Assembly (NCBI GenBank): GCA_937930825.1
Contig: CALHBL010000055.1
Location: 1 to 35,029 of the forward strand
Reading direction: 5' to 3'
DNA: 35,029 nucleotides
Origin: an uncultured Bacteriovoracaceae bacterium
GTDB lineage: Bacteria; Bdellovibrionota; Bacteriovoracia; Bacteriovoracales; Bacteriovoracaceae
Each line of letters begins with the position of its first letter. The first letter of the stretch is position 1. Shown piece after piece: positions 1,248 to 12,803 of this stretch. The position numbers were made by a program, and so were the translations under genes. Under the pieces are notes generated by a model. The model was not told the origin of the DNA and ran no database searches. It saw nothing but the letters and a program-made list of their open reading frames with translations.

Positions 1248-4091
1248 CTACTGAAATCTCTTGCTGTATTTAACAGCTGATTTGTACCTTGGCGTATTCT
1301 TATCTGATACTGATTCGCTAAGGCCAAAAGCTCCCCACTTGTGATAACCATGGGCCATATCAAAGTTGATGAAAGTTGTACCACCAATTTCCATCCATGC
1401 ATCATAGAGTTCTTCTGTAATGCGACTCATTCTTGGATGCTCAACAGCGGTCCTAAAAATCTTGAGAAGTTTCAACTCTCTGCCTTTAGTACTCTTCATG
1501 TGAATGATCTGCTTTCTCTTAGCAAGGCTTGTTGTTAAGTGATGACCTCCCTCGTATACGAGGAGTTTAATTTTATCACTAACAGTTTTAATCATTTCTA
1601 TCTGATCTTCCATCTGCTCTTTAACTTTTCTAACACCCTTAGGGTTCTTAGGATCTTCGAGAATATCAAGTAACTGATGAGCATTTTGCACACTCATAAT
1701 CCCATGCTTTGTGCCTAAACACTCGCCAATCTCACCAGATTCAATTGAATCAATTCTTCCTAGACAGCCATAGAAGTATGCACCTGTCGCTATTCCATCA
1801 ATCATTGGAAGATACTTCATCGTATCTGCATACTCTAACATAATCTCAGTAAGACCAGGGTTAGATTGTTTTGTAGCCAGTACAGTAATGAGCCTCTCCT
1901 TTGGAAAGCCTGCTCTAATCCATATATTATGGATCTTTGCTACTTGATCAACGTAAGCAAGATTAGCAATATACTGATAAGCTCTCAAGAGTCTCTTCTT
2001 AATATGAATTTCAGCTTCTTTAACTACATCATACTTAGAAATTCCATCTTGTAGTCCTCTTGTGAAACCTTTGTTGTATAGGCCTTTAAGTCTTCTTTCA
2101 AATACCATGATCTCATCACTATTGAATTGAGAAACATGATCGGGGTTATAAGAAGGCACTGCTTTCTTAGGTATTGCTTTAAGACCCTTTGCGACTCTTG
2201 TTGCATTCTTTCTGGCACTTATGTACCCATTCCAGTAACTATCAAGGTCTGGCATTTCTTTTTCAAGCATTGGAAGAGTATAGTTCCGATAGGCCGTATA
2301 TGCTTCACGGTAGCTCTTTGCAAAGTTAGGTCTATGAGGACTGTCTTCTTTTCCAAATTTTTCCTCTTGCAGTCTCGCCTTCTTACTAACATACTTCTCA
2401 ACTTGTAATAGAGCTTGCTTTCTATAGTGAACCTTGCGTTTGTTGGCCAAGCCGATCATGTACTTCTGACCCCAGAATCCACCATTCCAAACTTCATTAC
2501 TATACTCTAATGTAATTTTCTGATTCTTTGGGTAATGTTTCGTAAAATAATCCGCCATATTTTTAATGTACTCAACGGATGCATTGTGGGGAATATTTAC
2601 CCATAGGTCTGATTTTGTTTCCTTAGCAAGGTCTACTAAGACTTCATAAGGAACTCCTCTCCAGTGCTCTAATGGAGTTAAGTATGAGTTCCCCCAAGTA
2701 AGGTCACCAAGCTTTGCTCTATTTTGCGGAGTTCGGTGAAACTTCATTAAGCATTTCCCGTACTCTGAATTCTCTTCAACAATATTCCAACTCTTTTGAG
2801 GGTCTCTAACGAAGGCATATACACATTCCCTAGGTGGGCGGGGAGAAGCGTTGATCATATTCATCACTCTTAAGACTTTGAAATCTTTAATATAGTTAAT
2901 ATACGCTGGATTAAAGACTACCTTACCTTGAAGAATGGATTTACCATTAGCAATATTAGGCATTATCATTTTTATATTTTTAAGTTCAGTTTTCTTGCGA
3001 GCAGTAAAACTGATCCTTAAACCTTCTATATCAGGCTTTTGTGGAATTCTGACATCAATACAAACTCGTTGACCATATTGTGAAAGGTTGATTGGGATTT
3101 GATTACCATTAGTATCTGGAACTATTCCAGCACTTGGATGTCCGCCCTGGCCGCTATTTCCACCCTGGTTGTTACTTCCTCCACCATTGGAGTGTCCACC
3201 TTGATGGTTATGACTATTATCTCTCTTTTCTTTTTCTAGTCTTTCTTGCTGATCTATCACTTTACAATCTGGCATTGCCTGAATTTTTTGCGTATAATTC
3301 TGTCCGAAGAGCGAAGCTAGAAATCGCTTAATCCATGCCCAAAGCCTTGCCCAAAAGCCAAGTTTCTTCTTATACACTTCTGGATATTTACAATTTCTAT
3401 CAATATCAATACCCATCTCTTTTAATCTTGCTTTTTGAGCAATATTAATTGAAGGCTTTAATCCTGCTTGACCTGTACTAACAACATCACTAACTGAAGC
3501 ATAATCTCTCACTCCGTTACATGATACGACTCGACCAATACCTGAAACATTTACTGATACATCTTTAGACACATAGAGTGAATAAACACCATTAGGAACA
3601 TCACCTTGTCTGGCCGATTCGAGTAGAGTCGTCGTAACACTTGCCCCTTTTCGGTAAAGAGTCGCTGACTTGTCATGGTGGATATTTACCCCATATTGAG
3701 GAAAGTTATTTCTATTTTGCTGAGCATAGCGATAAATATACTTATCGGCATGAAAGCCACTTAAGGGAGTGGGAAGTTGTGCATCTTCTGCATCAACTCT
3801 AAGTTTAAGCTCTCTAATCTTAGCTAGACCACCTTTTTGAATCTCTGTACGCATTTGGTGATAGAAGTGCTCAACAAAGGGACGAGAGGTTTGAAATATA
3901 TTTGCAAACATAACAGGAGCGGAAACAAGTTTCTGCTCACTCTGTGGAGCAGACATATTAAGGCCCATCGCCCTAGTTAATTTATCATTTCCTTGTTGGG
4001 AACTCGGCAGCCGATCCCCAAGGTTGGTACACGAGTAACTGACTAGTACGGTCAGCAACAACGCAAGAATATAGAACTTATTTTTCATCAT
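1248..4091 (-). CDS. Exported glycoside-hydrolase-like (clan GH-A-type) protein, probable lipoprotein
   Basis: This 947-aa protein begins with a hydrophobic signal (residues 4-20) ending SYSC, an imperfect lipobox, so lipidation at about Cys21 is possible but not certain. A Gly/Asn/His/Gln-rich linker at about residues 290-325 separates an N-terminal domain from the larger C-terminal domain. The latter carries GVPYEVLVDLA, WVNIPHNAS and YSNEVWN (Glu near 533), then LLVYEGGHH (Glu near 846). These resemble the two catalytic glutamates on strands 4 and 7 of clan GH-A barrels and occur in proteins often annotated as cellulose/carbohydrate-binding. About 150 residues between the motifs are an unusual Lys/Tyr-rich insertion. 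GGGGA stands ahead of the ATG. A role in cutting an extracellular or prey-envelope polysaccharide is inference; the substrate is unknown. Confidence 0.8.
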   Translation of the reverse strand: MMKNKFYILALLLTVLVSYSCTNLGDRLPSSQQGNDKLTRAMGLNMSAPQSEQKLVSAPVMFANIFQTSRPFVEHFYHQMRTEIQKGGLAKIRELKLRVDAEDAQLPTPLSGFHADKYIYRYAQQNRNNFPQYGVNIHHDKSATLYRKGASVTTTLLESARQGDVPNGVYSLYVSKDVSVNVSGIGRVVSCNGVRDYASVSDVVSTGQAGLKPSINIAQKARLKEMGIDIDRNCKYPEVYKKKLGFWARLWAWIKRFLASLFGQNYTQKIQAMPDCKVIDQQERLEKEKRDNSHNHQGGHSNGGGSNNQGGNSGQGGHPSAGIVPDTNGNQIPINLSQYGQRVCIDVRIPQKPDIEGLRISFTARKKTELKNIKMIMPNIANGKSILQGKVVFNPAYINYIKDFKVLRVMNMINASPRPPRECVYAFVRDPQKSWNIVEENSEYGKCLMKFHRTPQNRAKLGDLTWGNSYLTPLEHWRGVPYEVLVDLAKETKSDLWVNIPHNASVEYIKNMADYFTKHYPKNQKITLEYSNEVWNGGFWGQKYMIGLANKRKVHYRKQALLQVEKYVSKKARLQEEKFGKEDSPHRPNFAKSYREAYTAYRNYTLPMLEKEMPDLDSYWNGYISARKNATRVAKGLKAIPKKAVPSYNPDHVSQFNSDEIMVFERRLKGLYNKGFTRGLQDGISKYDVVKEAEIHIKKRLLRAYQYIANLAYVDQVAKIHNIWIRAGFPKERLITVLATKQSNPGLTEIMLEYADTMKYLPMIDGIATGAYFYGCLGRIDSIESGEIGECLGTKHGIMSVQNAHQLLDILEDPKNPKGVRKVKEQMEDQIEMIKTVSDKIKLLVYEGGHHLTTSLAKRKQIIHMKSTKGRELKLLKIFRTAVEHPRMSRITEELYDAWMEIGGTTFINFDMAHGYHKWGAFGLSESVSDKNTPRYKSAVKYSKRFQ

Positions 4092-4754: not shown

Positions 4755-5444
4755 TTACTGAAGGCTTTTTAATAAACGTGACCAGACGCTACGGCAAGAT
4801 CTCACTTTAACATTATAGAGTTTATTATTTAAAATATCATTGAGAACGCCCTCTTTTAGGCCATCAGGCTTTCTTCCCTTACCTAGACCATCTCTGATAT
4901 TAGTTGAGCTTGTTGAATAGTCAGGTGACACACTAATCCCCTTAACTCCTCCAAAGTCTTTAATTTCGCTCCCTTCCCGTGCTACTCCAATATATGTTAC
5001 ATTTTGCGCCACGATAGGTTTGTAAGTCCCATCAGCGATATTCTCAATGACATCGCTTCCAGATATGAGAAAGACGCCATTACCTCTTTTGGCCTCACTA
5101 AAGTTTTTTACAAATCCATTATAGCCATTCTTCTGATACACCTCTAATTCACTTGGAGTCATAAAACGAATTTTTTTTTCTCCTTTGAAATGCAACTCGG
5201 CCATTCTCCTACGGTGTTCTACACTAAGTTTTTTATTCTTTCTTCCTTGGTTTTCACTTACAACAATTATAACTTCATCCAGCTTTCCTCCATTGATGGC
5301 CGCCCTTATCGCCGCAGTATGACCGAGGTGAGGAGGATCAAAAGTTCCTCCATAAATTCCAATTCTTTGGGAATCAGCGCCGAGGATGCTGCTGCTAATG
5401 ATGAAAAAAGTTAAGAGTATGAAAGGAGAAAATTTTATATTCAT
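4755..5444 (-). CDS. Exported NadD-like nucleotidyltransferase
   Basis: This 229-aa protein has a clear signal peptide (residues 1-23, likely cut after ILGA) in front of a nucleotidyltransferase fold. GIYGGTFDPPHLGH (residues 29-42, with His39 and His42 of the HxGH motif) and SSTNIRDGL (179-187, the ISSTxIR motif) match NadD, which adenylates nicotinate mononucleotide to NaAD using ATP. LISGSDVIENI also fits the family. NadD is normally cytoplasmic, so an export signal is odd. The start is the ATG at 5444: AAGGAG lies 8 nt away, while the longer GTG start would abut that RBS. The ATG overlaps the upstream phosphoesterase stop by 1 nt (TAATG), so the two are translationally coupled. Substrate and location are inferred. 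Confidence 0.85.
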   Translation of the reverse strand: MNIKFSPFILLTFFIISSSILGADSQRIGIYGGTFDPPHLGHTAAIRAAINGGKLDEVIIVVSENQGRKNKKLSVEHRRRMAELHFKGEKKIRFMTPSELEVYQKNGYNGFVKNFSEAKRGNGVFLISGSDVIENIADGTYKPIVAQNVTYIGVAREGSEIKDFGGVKGISVSPDYSTSSTNIRDGLGKGRKPDGLKEGVLNDILNNKLYNVKVRSCRSVWSRLLKSLQ

Positions 5445-8400
5445 TATCGGCACTCCTTAAGTAGAATATTTACAAGTTCATTCTTCTTAGCTGAACTTAG
5501 CGATCTGTAACTAGGAATTTCATCAATAATTCTGCGGGCAATCTCCACATCAACTGGAGAGATGAGACTACCTTGACTACTCAACTTTCCTTGAGCCTTT
5601 CTAAGAGAAGGAGAAGTTTCAAGAAGTCGGTATATTTTATTCTTAGAGTCTCTATCTAGTTCATCAATTTGTTTTAATAAACCTTCTGCTGAAGTCGCTA
5701 CTGAAGAGCTCTGAGGCTTACTCTTTGCTCTGCCCTTGCTACTAACCCCATTGGTTTGCAAGTCCTTGGCCCTGTACGCTCTTGTTGTATAAATACATGA
5801 ATCGCCATTTCGGCAGGGGCCAATCGTAACAGGCCTTCCGTCCTCCAGTAAAACTGTAAAAAGACCACTATTCTTTACTTCTCCAGTTGAGTCATCAACA
5901 TATTGAGCACCTCTACCTCCCAAGTTTCCAGAAGAAACAAACGAAGATGCCTTATCTCTTCCTCCATACCAAAGATCATGTAAATGATTATCTCCACTAA
6001 TTCTAAGGTTAACATCTGAATCAATCACAGAGCCAGCATGCACACCTGTAGCAGGACTGAAGGCCTTCTCATTTTTAAATACAATAGGTAAATCTATATT
6101 AGGAGGAGGTTGGGGTAGATGAGATATTTCAGCACTTAGTCCGTCACCAAAACGCACAACTTCAGATCCATCTGGATCTTTTAATATTTGAATTCCAGGA
6201 AACCTCTTTTCAAGATAGGCAATTCGTCTTTCTAAGAATTGAGGGTCATAAATGACTTTATCCCCAACCTTTGTATATCTATAAGCATCATGATTTCCTA
6301 ACTGAAGAATTAGTTGATCGTTTCTAAGTTCTCCTTTTGCAAGGATTTTAGCAATCACATCTCCGTTCGCCTTATTAGCAACTTCTTCAACTTGATTGAA
6401 ATGAGCTTTACTACATTGAGATATAGACTTCGCTCCATTCTTACAGATAGCCTGAAGCCATTTAGTCATCTGTGAGCTATCGTAAATATCTCCTCCAACT
6501 ATAACTCTCCCATTTTGAAAAGCGTCTTGCTCCTTTTCTAAATACCTTAAAAACCTATCAAAATTTTCTTGGCTTCCTCTTTGACCTAAGTGAAGATCAC
6601 TCACTACAATAGAGTTCTTCTTAGATCCTGAGTGAAAGAGAGTTTCAATTGCCTGTTCATACTGCTGACCTGTCAGACCTTGGAGATGATTTGTGACTTC
6701 AGAAATACTCTTAAAATCTTGTTCATCTCCTAGAGCTTTGGCATAGGCCTTAGTCTTTATCTTCGTAGGTACAAAGAGAGTTGATCCGATTGAGTGCTCC
6801 CATTGAGTATTATCACTGTCAATTTTTTTCAACTCTGACAGAAGAACCATACGACGTCCCCCATTTTCTGCAACAACTTCACCATAGCGACCTTTGATTG
6901 ATCGTAGTTTAAGAGTAACATTTCTATCATTCCAAATGCCTGAAACTCCTACAAGATCCCCTAAGTTAAGATTTTCAATCTCAAGTGGCTTACCAATATT
7001 TAAAGTTTGAACAGGAATGACTTTACCTTTGAGTGGCCCATTAGTGGCCTCAACATAGACATAGCCATTTTCTATTTTTTTTATAACACCATTGGTAGCA
7101 CCTCCGCCTTGATTGAAGCTGATTTTCTTTCCAGTCACATCTACCTTTTTAGGGGTAGTAACTTTCAAGGCCTTTGCTTCTTTTGCGCTCTTTAAGGTGG
7201 AAGAAACTGCGCCACCGATATCAAGGGCCAACACACTAACAACATCAATCACAGCTCTTGCTGTTTTATTCTTTGCCTCAACTGATTGATCCAGTACCGT
7301 TTGATAGTCTTCGACATGACCAGACTTAAGAAGCCCTTCAGTGCTCGACAAAAGATCACTCTCTTTAATTGCCGACCCAATGGAATCAGCTGCTATAATG
7401 GCAGAGCCTGCAACAGAGCTGGCAACCCCACTTACGGTTCCTAAAACGGGAACCACCTGAGCAGCTGTTCCTAGCACAATCAGGCCCATTCCTACCACTC
7501 TTCTCATACTCCATTTGGATTTTTCTATGATATCTTTTCTTAAAGCTTGGCAATAAGCACTTTGCATATTTTCATTTTCATGACTACCTAGCTTCATCAC
7601 TTCATCGACCAATAAAGGAAACTGATGAAGTCCTTCTCCCAGTCCCTTGCAGACTGTTGCAGCTGATTTCGTTAGATCTGTCGTTAAGCCCTGAATACCT
7701 CTTTTCATAAGGCCATCAACCTGGCCGTCATTACTTGAAACTCTTCTTACTTCTTTAGCGTAAATATTCACAAGCTTTGCAAAATCAATATCTCTATTAT
7801 TCTTAAGTAAGTCCTTACTCTTTCTCCTCATTTTAGGATCATGAACGCCTTCAAGTATCTCCTGATAGTCATCAGGATAAGCTTTAATTACTTTTTCAAA
7901 ACCCTCTATGAGCTCCTTTGCTCTATTTGATTTTACTAAGTGACCTGCTAAAGCTGACGGACGCACTTTAGAAGTAGAGTCAACAAAGAGATTTAAGTTA
8001 TCTACTTTCTTAAAAAGTAAGGGGAACGACTTTACTCTTTTATACAGAGGAATCATTGCCCTCTTATAATTCTCGATTTTCCTCTTACTCGCCTCTTGGT
8101 GACTCTTCAACCTCTTATTCTTATTTTCTAGGCCCAGAGAACACTCACTATCTACTCGAGCATTGAGCTCAGCCTTATGCTTTGCTACGATATCAGCATC
8201 TGAAGTATCAGAAGTTCCACCCTGCTCTTTTGGGGCCTTCCTTCTAATATCGACAATGAGCTCTCGCTTCACTCTTGCCATGCATTTAAAGATATCAATA
8301 TTGGAAAGCTGCTCTAACTTCTCATTATCTACCTTTTCAATGGCCTCTTGTTTATTAAAGAAAGCACGATTTAAAAGACTATTAAAAAGACTCTCTTTTA

Positions 8401-8935
8401 ATAACTTTTCTCTATCTCTTTTACGCTGCTGAGGAGAAGTTGTTTTAGCTATTGAATTAAGTTCTTCATTCGAGGTATCAATTATTTTCTTAAGTAAGCC
8501 TTGTGAAAAATTCTTATTTTTTACACCACATCTTTTCAAACTCAAATCAGCATTTTCTGAAGACGTTCTTCTTCTGCCTTTCTTTACTCCAATATCTTTA
8601 TAAATTGACCAATATTGAGTTCTCTTACTTAAAATACTTTGAACTGCTTTTGTGGCCAGTTTTTCCTTAAAGTTTTTAATATTCTTTTCATTTCTGGCAT
8701 ATTCAATTTTGAGGTAGTTACTGGTCACCTTCCAAGCAAGTTCTTGATTATGAAAGCTCTTATAGCATTCTGGATTGATGGCAGGCCTTGGAAGCTCAAA
8801 TGTCTTCAAGGTTTCACTTACTTCTGCGATTTGCGGAAACTTTTCACAATAAAGAGGCAAACCTTCAGAGCCATGAGTAGACTCAAGACCCATTAAAGCC
8901 ATCATTAATAACAAACTGAAAAAATTTCCCTTCAT
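5444..8935 (-). CDS. Very large exported calcineurin-like metallophosphoesterase
   Basis: This 1163-aa protein has a signal peptide (residues 1-22), a long charged, mainly helical N-terminal region with several Cys, a hydrophobic Gly/Ala/Val-rich segment at about 478-520 that could insert into a membrane, and two small beta-rich modules at about 600-730. The phosphoesterase domain follows: SDLHLG (about 779), GGDIYD (813), LGNHDAY (880), GVHAG and SGDNHLH (981). These match the metal ligands of the calcineurin-like family. A Ser/Lys-rich helical tail ends it. The ATG at 8935 starts a good signal sequence; the earlier TTG at 8950 has no RBS. It is coupled to the exported NadD-like gene. The substrate is not predictable (nucleotide, phospholipid or protein phosphate). 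Confidence 0.85.
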   Translation of the reverse strand: MKGNFFSLLLMMALMGLESTHGSEGLPLYCEKFPQIAEVSETLKTFELPRPAINPECYKSFHNQELAWKVTSNYLKIEYARNEKNIKNFKEKLATKAVQSILSKRTQYWSIYKDIGVKKGRRRTSSENADLSLKRCGVKNKNFSQGLLKKIIDTSNEELNSIAKTTSPQQRKRDREKLLKESLFNSLLNRAFFNKQEAIEKVDNEKLEQLSNIDIFKCMARVKRELIVDIRRKAPKEQGGTSDTSDADIVAKHKAELNARVDSECSLGLENKNKRLKSHQEASKRKIENYKRAMIPLYKRVKSFPLLFKKVDNLNLFVDSTSKVRPSALAGHLVKSNRAKELIEGFEKVIKAYPDDYQEILEGVHDPKMRRKSKDLLKNNRDIDFAKLVNIYAKEVRRVSSNDGQVDGLMKRGIQGLTTDLTKSAATVCKGLGEGLHQFPLLVDEVMKLGSHENENMQSAYCQALRKDIIEKSKWSMRRVVGMGLIVLGTAAQVVPVLGTVSGVASSVAGSAIIAADSIGSAIKESDLLSSTEGLLKSGHVEDYQTVLDQSVEAKNKTARAVIDVVSVLALDIGGAVSSTLKSAKEAKALKVTTPKKVDVTGKKISFNQGGGATNGVIKKIENGYVYVEATNGPLKGKVIPVQTLNIGKPLEIENLNLGDLVGVSGIWNDRNVTLKLRSIKGRYGEVVAENGGRRMVLLSELKKIDSDNTQWEHSIGSTLFVPTKIKTKAYAKALGDEQDFKSISEVTNHLQGLTGQQYEQAIETLFHSGSKKNSIVVSDLHLGQRGSQENFDRFLRYLEKEQDAFQNGRVIVGGDIYDSSQMTKWLQAICKNGAKSISQCSKAHFNQVEEVANKANGDVIAKILAKGELRNDQLILQLGNHDAYRYTKVGDKVIYDPQFLERRIAYLEKRFPGIQILKDPDGSEVVRFGDGLSAEISHLPQPPPNIDLPIVFKNEKAFSPATGVHAGSVIDSDVNLRISGDNHLHDLWYGGRDKASSFVSSGNLGGRGAQYVDDSTGEVKNSGLFTVLLEDGRPVTIGPCRNGDSCIYTTRAYRAKDLQTNGVSSKGRAKSKPQSSSVATSAEGLLKQIDELDRDSKNKIYRLLETSPSLRKAQGKLSSQGSLISPVDVEIARRIIDEIPSYRSLSSAKKNELVNILLKECR

Positions 8936-11951: not shown

Positions 11952-12803
11952 TTAGTACTGCTGAATCTTAACAGACTTTGCCGGTCTACTACTGACATCT
12001 ACCTCAACCTGAAGCGCGCAGTGGTCAGATACAAACCTTCTAAAATATTCAGCTTTGGAATAAGGAAATTTCACAGACTCTCTTCGGCAAGGCCCATAGA
12101 CTTCAGCTTTTTTTACCACAAGCCCCCTACTCCAGACTCTATCGAAAATACGCTGGCCATACCCAAGATAAGTCGAAGTCTCATGAGCAGTTCTAGTAAA
12201 ACCTGTTTGACCAAAAACTCCATCCATTAAAATAACATCATCCACTTCATTCCGAGTAAGACTTGATCTGTATGTATTGAAGTCCCCTATTATTAGAGTA
12301 TTAGGGTTTTCCACAGAATCAGTAAGAGGAGAATTAATAAGACTCTCTATTTGATCCAATCTTAGATCTGTTTCTTTTGATCCGGCCTTTAAGTGTAAAC
12401 CTATAATATTAATTCCATTGTCTAGTTTGGCCGCAAAAGCTGGTCTCAATCTCTTTCCTACCGCAATATCTTCATCCACACTGAAGATTGCTTGTGAATT
12501 ATTCTTTACGCAAATACTAACATTCTGATGACCTCTCCCACCGTCTCCATATGTTTCACAAAAGTGATTAGGAAGTAAGGCAGAAATTCTCGCAGTATCA
12601 GTTAATTCTTGCAGGACAAATACATCCGATTTAGGAATTTGCTTTGTCAGAAAGTCTTTTATCTTTTCATCACGATATTCATCACTAGGCAATCCATACA
12701 TACTTCCACCACGACCGTACCACTGAATATTAAGGCTGGTTACTGTAAGGGCCTTGATAGAAAAGCTAAAAATTATACTGAGGGAAAGTGCGACCTTAAT
12801 CAT
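11952..12803 (-). CDS. Exported endonuclease/exonuclease/phosphatase (EEP) family nuclease
   Basis: This 283-aa protein has a signal peptide (residues 1-18) and the EEP/DNase I-like motifs: SLNIQW (about 23-28), LQEL (Glu66), IGLHLKAGS (catalytic His near 137), IIGDFNTYRSS (Asp and Asn near 172-174) and VSDHCALQVE (SDH near 263). AAGGAT precedes the ATG. EEP enzymes cleave DNA, RNA or phosphoesters; with the signal peptide a secreted nuclease digesting external or prey nucleic acid is plausible, but phosphatase or sphingomyelinase relatives share the fold. It is monocistronic and divergent from the methyltransferase gene. Confidence 0.85.
   Translation of the reverse strand: MIKVALSLSIIFSFSIKALTVTSLNIQWYGRGGSMYGLPSDEYRDEKIKDFLTKQIPKSDVFVLQELTDTARISALLPNHFCETYGDGGRGHQNVSICVKNNSQAIFSVDEDIAVGKRLRPAFAAKLDNGINIIGLHLKAGSKETDLRLDQIESLINSPLTDSVENPNTLIIGDFNTYRSSLTRNEVDDVILMDGVFGQTGFTRTAHETSTYLGYGQRIFDRVWSRGLVVKKAEVYGPCRRESVKFPYSKAEYFRRFVSDHCALQVEVDVSSRPAKSVKIQQY

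Follow-up and report, generated by a model that had tools for sequence, protein, structure and literature searches.

Enzymes of the NadD fold can cap a phosphate, added or supplied by a kinase, with a nucleotide; NadR, HldE, FAD synthetase and CoA synthase work in this way. Large exported proteins in which a conserved N-terminus is followed by varied C-termini are known as polymorphic toxins (PMC3482391), and combinations of protein-modifying and nucleotide enzymes occur in the polyvalent proteins of phages and conjugative elements, which are thought to enter another cell (PMC5512222). Here we report a computational analysis of a 35,029-nucleotide stretch of DNA (the window) from an uncultured bacterium of the family Bacteriovoracaceae, phylum Bdellovibrionota, in which a gene for a NadD-like protein with a predicted signal peptide, P0001, is coupled to the gene of a much larger predicted exported protein, P0002. 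We consider it somewhat probable that P0001, encoded beside a polymorphic-toxin-like carrier, is an accessory adenylyltransferase that is exported, uses ATP, has changed its acceptor and probably acts in a prey or host cell. An earlier note on this DNA had described the two genes as an exported NadD-type adenylyltransferase and a giant exported phosphoesterase.

The homology of P0001 to NadD is beyond chance. The protein matches the Pfam family CTP_transf_like (3.8e-14), the NCBIfam NadD models (down to 1.7e-18) and a NadD entry in a PDB sequence search (1.4e-10), and the top PDB fold matches of its AlphaFold model (pLDDT 74.8) are all NadD (5deo, 3e27, 1kaq; 7e-13). It shares with NadD of the HxGH superfamily (TIGR00482, PRK00071) the same fold and overall core, the GxD motif, and the HxGH and SSTxIR motifs highlighted in the earlier note, which are found in P0001 as GGTFDPPHLGH and SSTNIR. 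Unlike NadD, it is predicted to be exported, lacks the acceptor Trp and the SYTxDT motif, is encoded separately from the housekeeping gene, and scores under every NadD equivalog cut-off (at best 66.8 bits versus 150; for TIGR00482, 59.7 versus 112). The genome (443 contigs, 88% complete) contains four further CTP_transf_like genes besides P0001, one of them a cytosolic NadD, L005 on contig C330, which has no signal-like N-terminus and keeps the acceptor Trp. Since orthologues of L005 occur in each of the 23 family genomes that were searched (its own genome counted), P0001 was rejected as the housekeeping NadD and represents an additional gene.

Export of P0001 and P0002 is suggested by their N-termini, each of which has the features of a signal peptide, as the earlier note had proposed: a basic residue and a hydrophobic core, along with a plausible cleavage site for signal peptidase, which in P0001 lies between SSSILGA and DSQ. 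A hydrophobic N-terminus is present in the full-length members of the exported group, whereas among 66 NadDs of other phyla that matched the profile, one has a signal-like segment.

To compare active sites, 29 exported NadDs were aligned with 65 canonical ones. On the ATP side, the second His of HxGH, Arg78, GxD, Arg156 and the SS pair are each kept in 29/29 exported proteins. The acceptor side differs: none of the exported proteins has the Trp of 64/65 canonical NadDs or the Thr of xDT (60/65), and three keep the Thr/Ser of SYT (60/65); the Trp and Thr positions are occupied by G and F in P0001. Residues cited for the nicotinate mononucleotide (NaMN) site include Trp117 of Bacillus anthracis and Thr86 of Mycobacterium tuberculosis (PMC8562812), and Asp109 and His19 of the Escherichia coli enzyme lie on the ATP side (PMC1249556); residues in the region of the lost Trp and Thr adjoin the NaMN site. 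The earlier note had suggested chemistry on NAD-like or other nucleotides and an assay with NaMN or nicotinamide mononucleotide (NMN); either of these two appears unlikely as a substrate, because both residues are lost throughout the exported set. Of the active-site pocket, whose degeneracy the same note had named as a possible objection, the acceptor side is altered and the ATP side intact. The natural reading would be a working adenylyltransferase that uses another acceptor and is not a NaMN enzyme.

A profile built from the exported relatives matched proteins in 16 of 129 family genomes (E<=1e-12), and the family members that were read have a hydrophobic N-terminus or a lipobox wherever the start is present. 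With at least 15 more genomes across the phylum, exported NadD-like proteins occur in at least 31 genomes, and the group is patchy in its distribution. It includes standalone proteins (P0001, L065, L202, L203) and a variety of fusions: ParB-like with NadD in about a dozen genomes (L067, L068, L089-L091, L189-L195, L199), where the ParB-like label was given by eye from a NAHHR-type motif and has no Pfam ParB match; ParB-like with NadD and a kinase-like part, the last recognized by eye (L201, L205); NadD with a kinase-like domain (L098); SLOG with NadD (L064); and a tandem NadD (L096). Exported or exported-looking fusions of SelO with NadD were found in three genomes, identified by Pfam in L063 (6687-9032) and L197 and by resemblance in L198. 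In genome G136 (L098, 3421-6703), the ParB-like, NadD plus kinase-like and DUF2252 genes are adjacent and exported, the latter two being joined by TAATG. The ParB-like, NadD and kinase-like parts are probably functionally linked, since some genomes carry them as fusions and another as neighbouring genes. The expectation that exported NadDs would always stand beside a phosphoesterase was not borne out; elsewhere their neighbours are ParB-like, SelO/kinase-like, SLOG or EEP-type. In named genomes, a contig scan with the P0001 sequence found no relatives, and an alignment scan returned mainly ordinary NadDs of other phyla. It also returned an exported-looking NadD without the acceptor Trp in a Candidatus Riflebacteria metagenome-assembled genome (L126, 4848-5693), whose position outside the phylum suggests transfer. 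A phage origin of P0001 was rejected, as tblastn against phages gave just distant NadD-like matches.

Among 26 less redundant exported NadD proteins, four of them truncated at the start, 17 have a single Cys in the mature protein, which in every one of these is no more than 20 residues from an end (expected, about 1.8); the nominal probability of 5e-18 is too small, owing to the relatedness of the proteins. This Cys is mostly at the C-terminus, after whichever domain ends the protein, and in ParB-NadD fusions it is just past the signal peptide; in P0001 it is C217 (window 4794-4796). By comparison, one of 17 canonical single-Cys NadDs has it at an end. A general habit of exported proteins was rejected as the explanation for G136, where the terminal position was seen in none of 12 single-Cys exported non-lipoproteins (800 kb). 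A terminal Cys is also present in neighbouring exported genes of G136 and G107, and the G136 ParB-like and DUF2252 genes have one Cys each, near the N-terminus. The position of the solitary Cys is a stronger statement than the tight motif as first written, which matched only some members; such a Cys could be a tag by which the proteins are sorted, dimerised or coupled. Near two exported NadD genes lie genes for exported PLD-type proteins whose only mature Cys is close to the C-terminus (L089, 3004-4281; L098, 9136-10404).

The description of P0002 as a giant phosphoesterase gave way to one of a carrier module whose C-terminal domain can be exchanged. The first ~615 residues match large exported proteins of relatives, and the carrier-module profile found them in 17/129 family genomes, representing 11 of 48 genera. 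The module combines a signal peptide, an LPxYCxxFP motif, invariant or nearly invariant Cys 30, 136, 429 and 462, and a glycine-rich hydrophobic hairpin. When 17 C-termini of at least 60 amino acids were compared, only two homologous pairs were found, and the kinds seen are ADP-ribosyltransferase (ART)-like, phosphoesterase-like and of no known type. The ART-like C-terminus belongs to L056 (DUF3990, 3.3e-5; PARP, 3.3e-4; both under the cut-offs), and L060 contains repeats that by eye resemble the SH3/KOW-like linker of P0002. In P0002 itself, the metal-binding motifs of a phosphoesterase can be read within residues 772-1040 (SDLHLG, GGDIYD, GNHD, GDNHLH), as stated in the earlier note. The domain call would nevertheless stay at the level of motifs, because the match to Pfam Metallophos (PF00149) scores 19.5 bits against a cut-off of 21.5, the PDB sequence search with P0002 found nothing, and a single-sequence fold model of the C-terminus has a pLDDT of 39.5.

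No close or convincing relative of this phosphoesterase domain was found in 369 genomes of the phylum, and a phage origin was rejected, with no phage match. The nearest case is the carrier L054 (G003, 6929-7319), whose weakly similar phosphoesterase-type C-terminus (E 6e-4) lies in an interrupted frame with no exported NadD beside it. As the C-termini of the carriers also differ from one another, the P0002 phosphoesterase appears to be an exchangeable tip on a conserved carrier, and its pairing with NadD, which the earlier note had taken for a possible conserved unit, is not conserved. The genes coupled to the carriers P0002 (that is, P0001) and L052 are not immunity-like. In L052 (3-2575, G079), the carrier end overlaps by 4 nucleotides the start of an exported gene of 456 amino acids whose family is unassigned.

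At the junction of the two genes, AAGGAG-TGCCGATA-ATG places the AAGGAG eight bases upstream of the overlap, and one base is common to the P0002 stop TAA (5446-5444) and the P0001 start ATG (5444-5442), exactly the 1-nucleotide overlap previously noticed. From this arrangement, P0002 and P0001 are best read as one translation unit of two predicted exported, effector-like proteins. The features of the locus are collected in Table 1.

Table 1. Coordinates of the P0002-P0001 features in the window.
Feature	Position	Strand	Evidence
P0001, exported NadD-fold adenylyltransferase (predicted), 229 aa	4755..5444	-	ORF; Pfam, PDB and fold matches given in the text
P0001 predicted signal peptide (MNIKFSPFILLTFFIISSSILGA)	5379..5444	-	sequence; hydrophobic core of 10 residues, mean KD 2.80
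P0001 ATP-site motif GGTFDPPHLGH	5319..5351	-	second His in 29/29 exported proteins
P0001 acceptor-site stretch; NadD Thr (SYTxDT) and Trp (W139 position) lost, G in P0001	5028..5137	-	alignment; part of the stretch modelled at low confidence
P0001 ATP-phosphate motif SSTNIR	4893..4910	-	SS in 29/29 exported proteins
P0001 C-terminal helix with its sole Cys (C217, SCRSVWSRLLKSLQ)	4758..4805	-	helix 214-228 in model
TAATG, overlap of P0002 stop and P0001 start	5442..5446	-	sequence
Shine-Dalgarno AAGGAG of P0001, within P0002 3' end	5453..5458	-	sequence
P0002, exported carrier with variable C-terminal domain (predicted), 1163 aa	5444..8935	-	ORF; carrier family
P0002 N-terminal carrier module, residues 1-615	7091..8935	-	alignment; 17/129 genomes
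P0002 linker, SH3/KOW-like repeats, ~residues 640-745	6701..7018	-	by eye
P0002 putative calcineurin-like phosphoesterase-type domain, ~residues 772-1040	5816..6622	-	motifs; Pfam Metallophos below cut-off
P0002 C-terminal helical tail ending LLKECR (terminal Cys 1162)	5447..5683	-	sequence; Cys positions

Two other genes on the same strand of the window were noted. An exported EEP-family hydrolase (11952-12803, Pfam 2.3e-7) represents a family that also adjoins three ParB-NadD genes in relatives, and a lipoprotein-like open reading frame of 947 amino acids (1248-4091) matched no Pfam family; its EYSNEVWN stretch is reminiscent of glycoside-hydrolase-type proteins.

The NadD fold is known, and the carrier architecture resembles that of polymorphic toxins: the conserved exported N-terminus is followed by varied C-termini, one of them ART-like. 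In contrast to those toxins, the carrier has no recognized trafficking repeats or pre-toxin Pfam domain and mostly no adjacent immunity gene. The exported SelO/kinase-like and ParB-like fusions likewise join a NadD fold to a phosphate-adding domain, as the cytosolic biosynthetic enzymes of the NadR type do, although their kinase-like domains come from other families, and the combination of kinase with adenylyltransferase is a feature of the relatives and not of the window locus, where P0001 has no fused kinase. Similarly, the protein adenylyltransferase SelO (PF02696) is fused to an exported NadD domain in G028 and G345, with partial SelO matches and in an exported context, and is absent from the window locus. 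The polyvalent proteins share the joining of protein-modifying with nucleotide enzymes, whereas the exported NadD-type genes are chromosomal and encode signal peptides. Text searches for NMNAT or calcineurin terms gave none in the 2012 census of polymorphic toxins (PMC3482391) or in the survey of polyvalent proteins (PMC5512222), and no exported NadD effector was found in the open-licence literature.

Several other explanations of P0001 were weighed. It is quite unlikely that P0001 serves as a periplasmic NaMN/NMN adenylyltransferase that helps to salvage NAD from prey or the surroundings while P0002 hydrolyses dinucleotides: the NadD-like fold and ATP site, and the nucleotidyltransferase adjoining a phosphoesterase-type domain, would suit such a role, but the acceptor Trp and Thr are gone in all exported proteins aligned, no ATP is expected in the periplasm, and exported NadD has no conserved association with the phosphoesterase. 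Instead, the exported proteins could be digestive or salvage enzymes that stay periplasmic or at the outer surface and draw on the ATP of lysed prey. Several loci have exported EEP and PLD-type hydrolases encoded close by, and intraperiplasmic predators live within their prey (PMC11656739); this we hold to be unlikely, as the partners of SelO-, ART- and kinase-like type have signalling or modifying functions rather than digestive ones. An immunity or chaperone protein of a toxin-like P0002, recruited from an old NadD, would be expected where P0001 lies, immediately downstream, coupled and co-exported, which is a common site of polymorphic-toxin immunity genes (PMC3482391). However, the ATP-site residues are all kept, both in P0001 and in relatives without an adjacent carrier, P0001 relatives are fused to enzymes, and other carriers have no equivalent downstream gene, which makes this role very improbable. 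The same low probability is given to the view of P0001 as an exported relic, degenerate and drifting with little constraint: the long branch, the sub-cut-off scores and the patchy distribution could be explained in this way, but not so easily the selective conservation of the ATP site in 29/29 proteins while the acceptor site was replaced, nor the intact open reading frame, good Shine-Dalgarno sequence and retained terminal Cys of P0001.

Some observations weigh against an exported effector-like adenylyltransferase beside a toxin-like carrier. Its export is predicted from N-terminal sequence features, and the putative phosphoesterase of P0002 falls below the Pfam cut-off. In the tree, P0001 has a long branch (1.94) within a moderately supported group (85/94) that contains all exported proteins plus two ordinary non-exported NadDs; the tree neither shows nor rejects a single origin. 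Exported NadDs are missing from the majority of family genomes, among them the probable Halobacteriovorax marinus genome G008, and are thus not needed for predation. Finally, unlike classic polymorphic toxins, the carriers mostly have no neighbouring immunity-like gene, the gene that follows being convergent or distant in most cases.

For the accessory adenylyltransferase with a changed acceptor, which we still favour, the following mechanism can be proposed. The N-terminal module of P0002 would hold whichever C-terminal domain has recombined onto it, here a putative calcineurin-like phosphoesterase, and P0001 would still bind ATP and could transfer AMP, with an acceptor pocket that would no longer fit NaMN. 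The recurrent fusion of NadD to SelO/kinase-like and ParB/sulfiredoxin-fold domains suggests, by analogy with NadR and HldE, that the exported NadD-type proteins may transfer adenylyl groups to a metabolite or macromolecule that carries a phosphate. ATP is required by enzymes of the SelO, kinase and NadD types, and the periplasm of the bacterium itself would not be expected to provide it. For this reason, and in a family that includes intraperiplasmic predators, the periplasmic site of action allowed for in the earlier note appears unlikely and action in another cell most likely: the proteins would act after leaving the cell, in the cytoplasm of prey or host, or on ATP released from prey. A type II secretion system secretin gene is present in the genome of P0001 and would allow export past the periplasm, although it says nothing of P0001 and P0002 themselves. 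Altogether, the computation shows the two genes and their coupling, the homology, distribution and fusions of the NadD-type proteins with their kept ATP side, changed acceptor side and lone terminal Cys, and the varied C-termini of the carriers; we infer the activity and substrate of P0001, secretion past the periplasm, the target cell and any joint role of the two proteins. More tentatively, Bdellovibrionota may possess a hitherto unrecognised class of enzymes that are exported and depend on ATP (NadD-fold with replaced acceptor pockets, ParB/sulfiredoxin-fold, SelO/kinase-like). Its members would have been recombined, either into fusions or into coupled genes, and would share a solitary terminal Cys, often within C-x2-hh-x2-h-[LF], that possibly tags them for sorting or coupling when they are delivered to prey or host cells.

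What predatory bacteria deliver into their prey is largely an open question. A family of exported enzymes that require ATP leads to the prediction that they must work inside another cell, and raises the question of what a NadD-fold enzyme adenylylates once its nicotinate pocket is gone. The carrier module, in turn, would provide a handle for listing further effectors in this group of bacteria.

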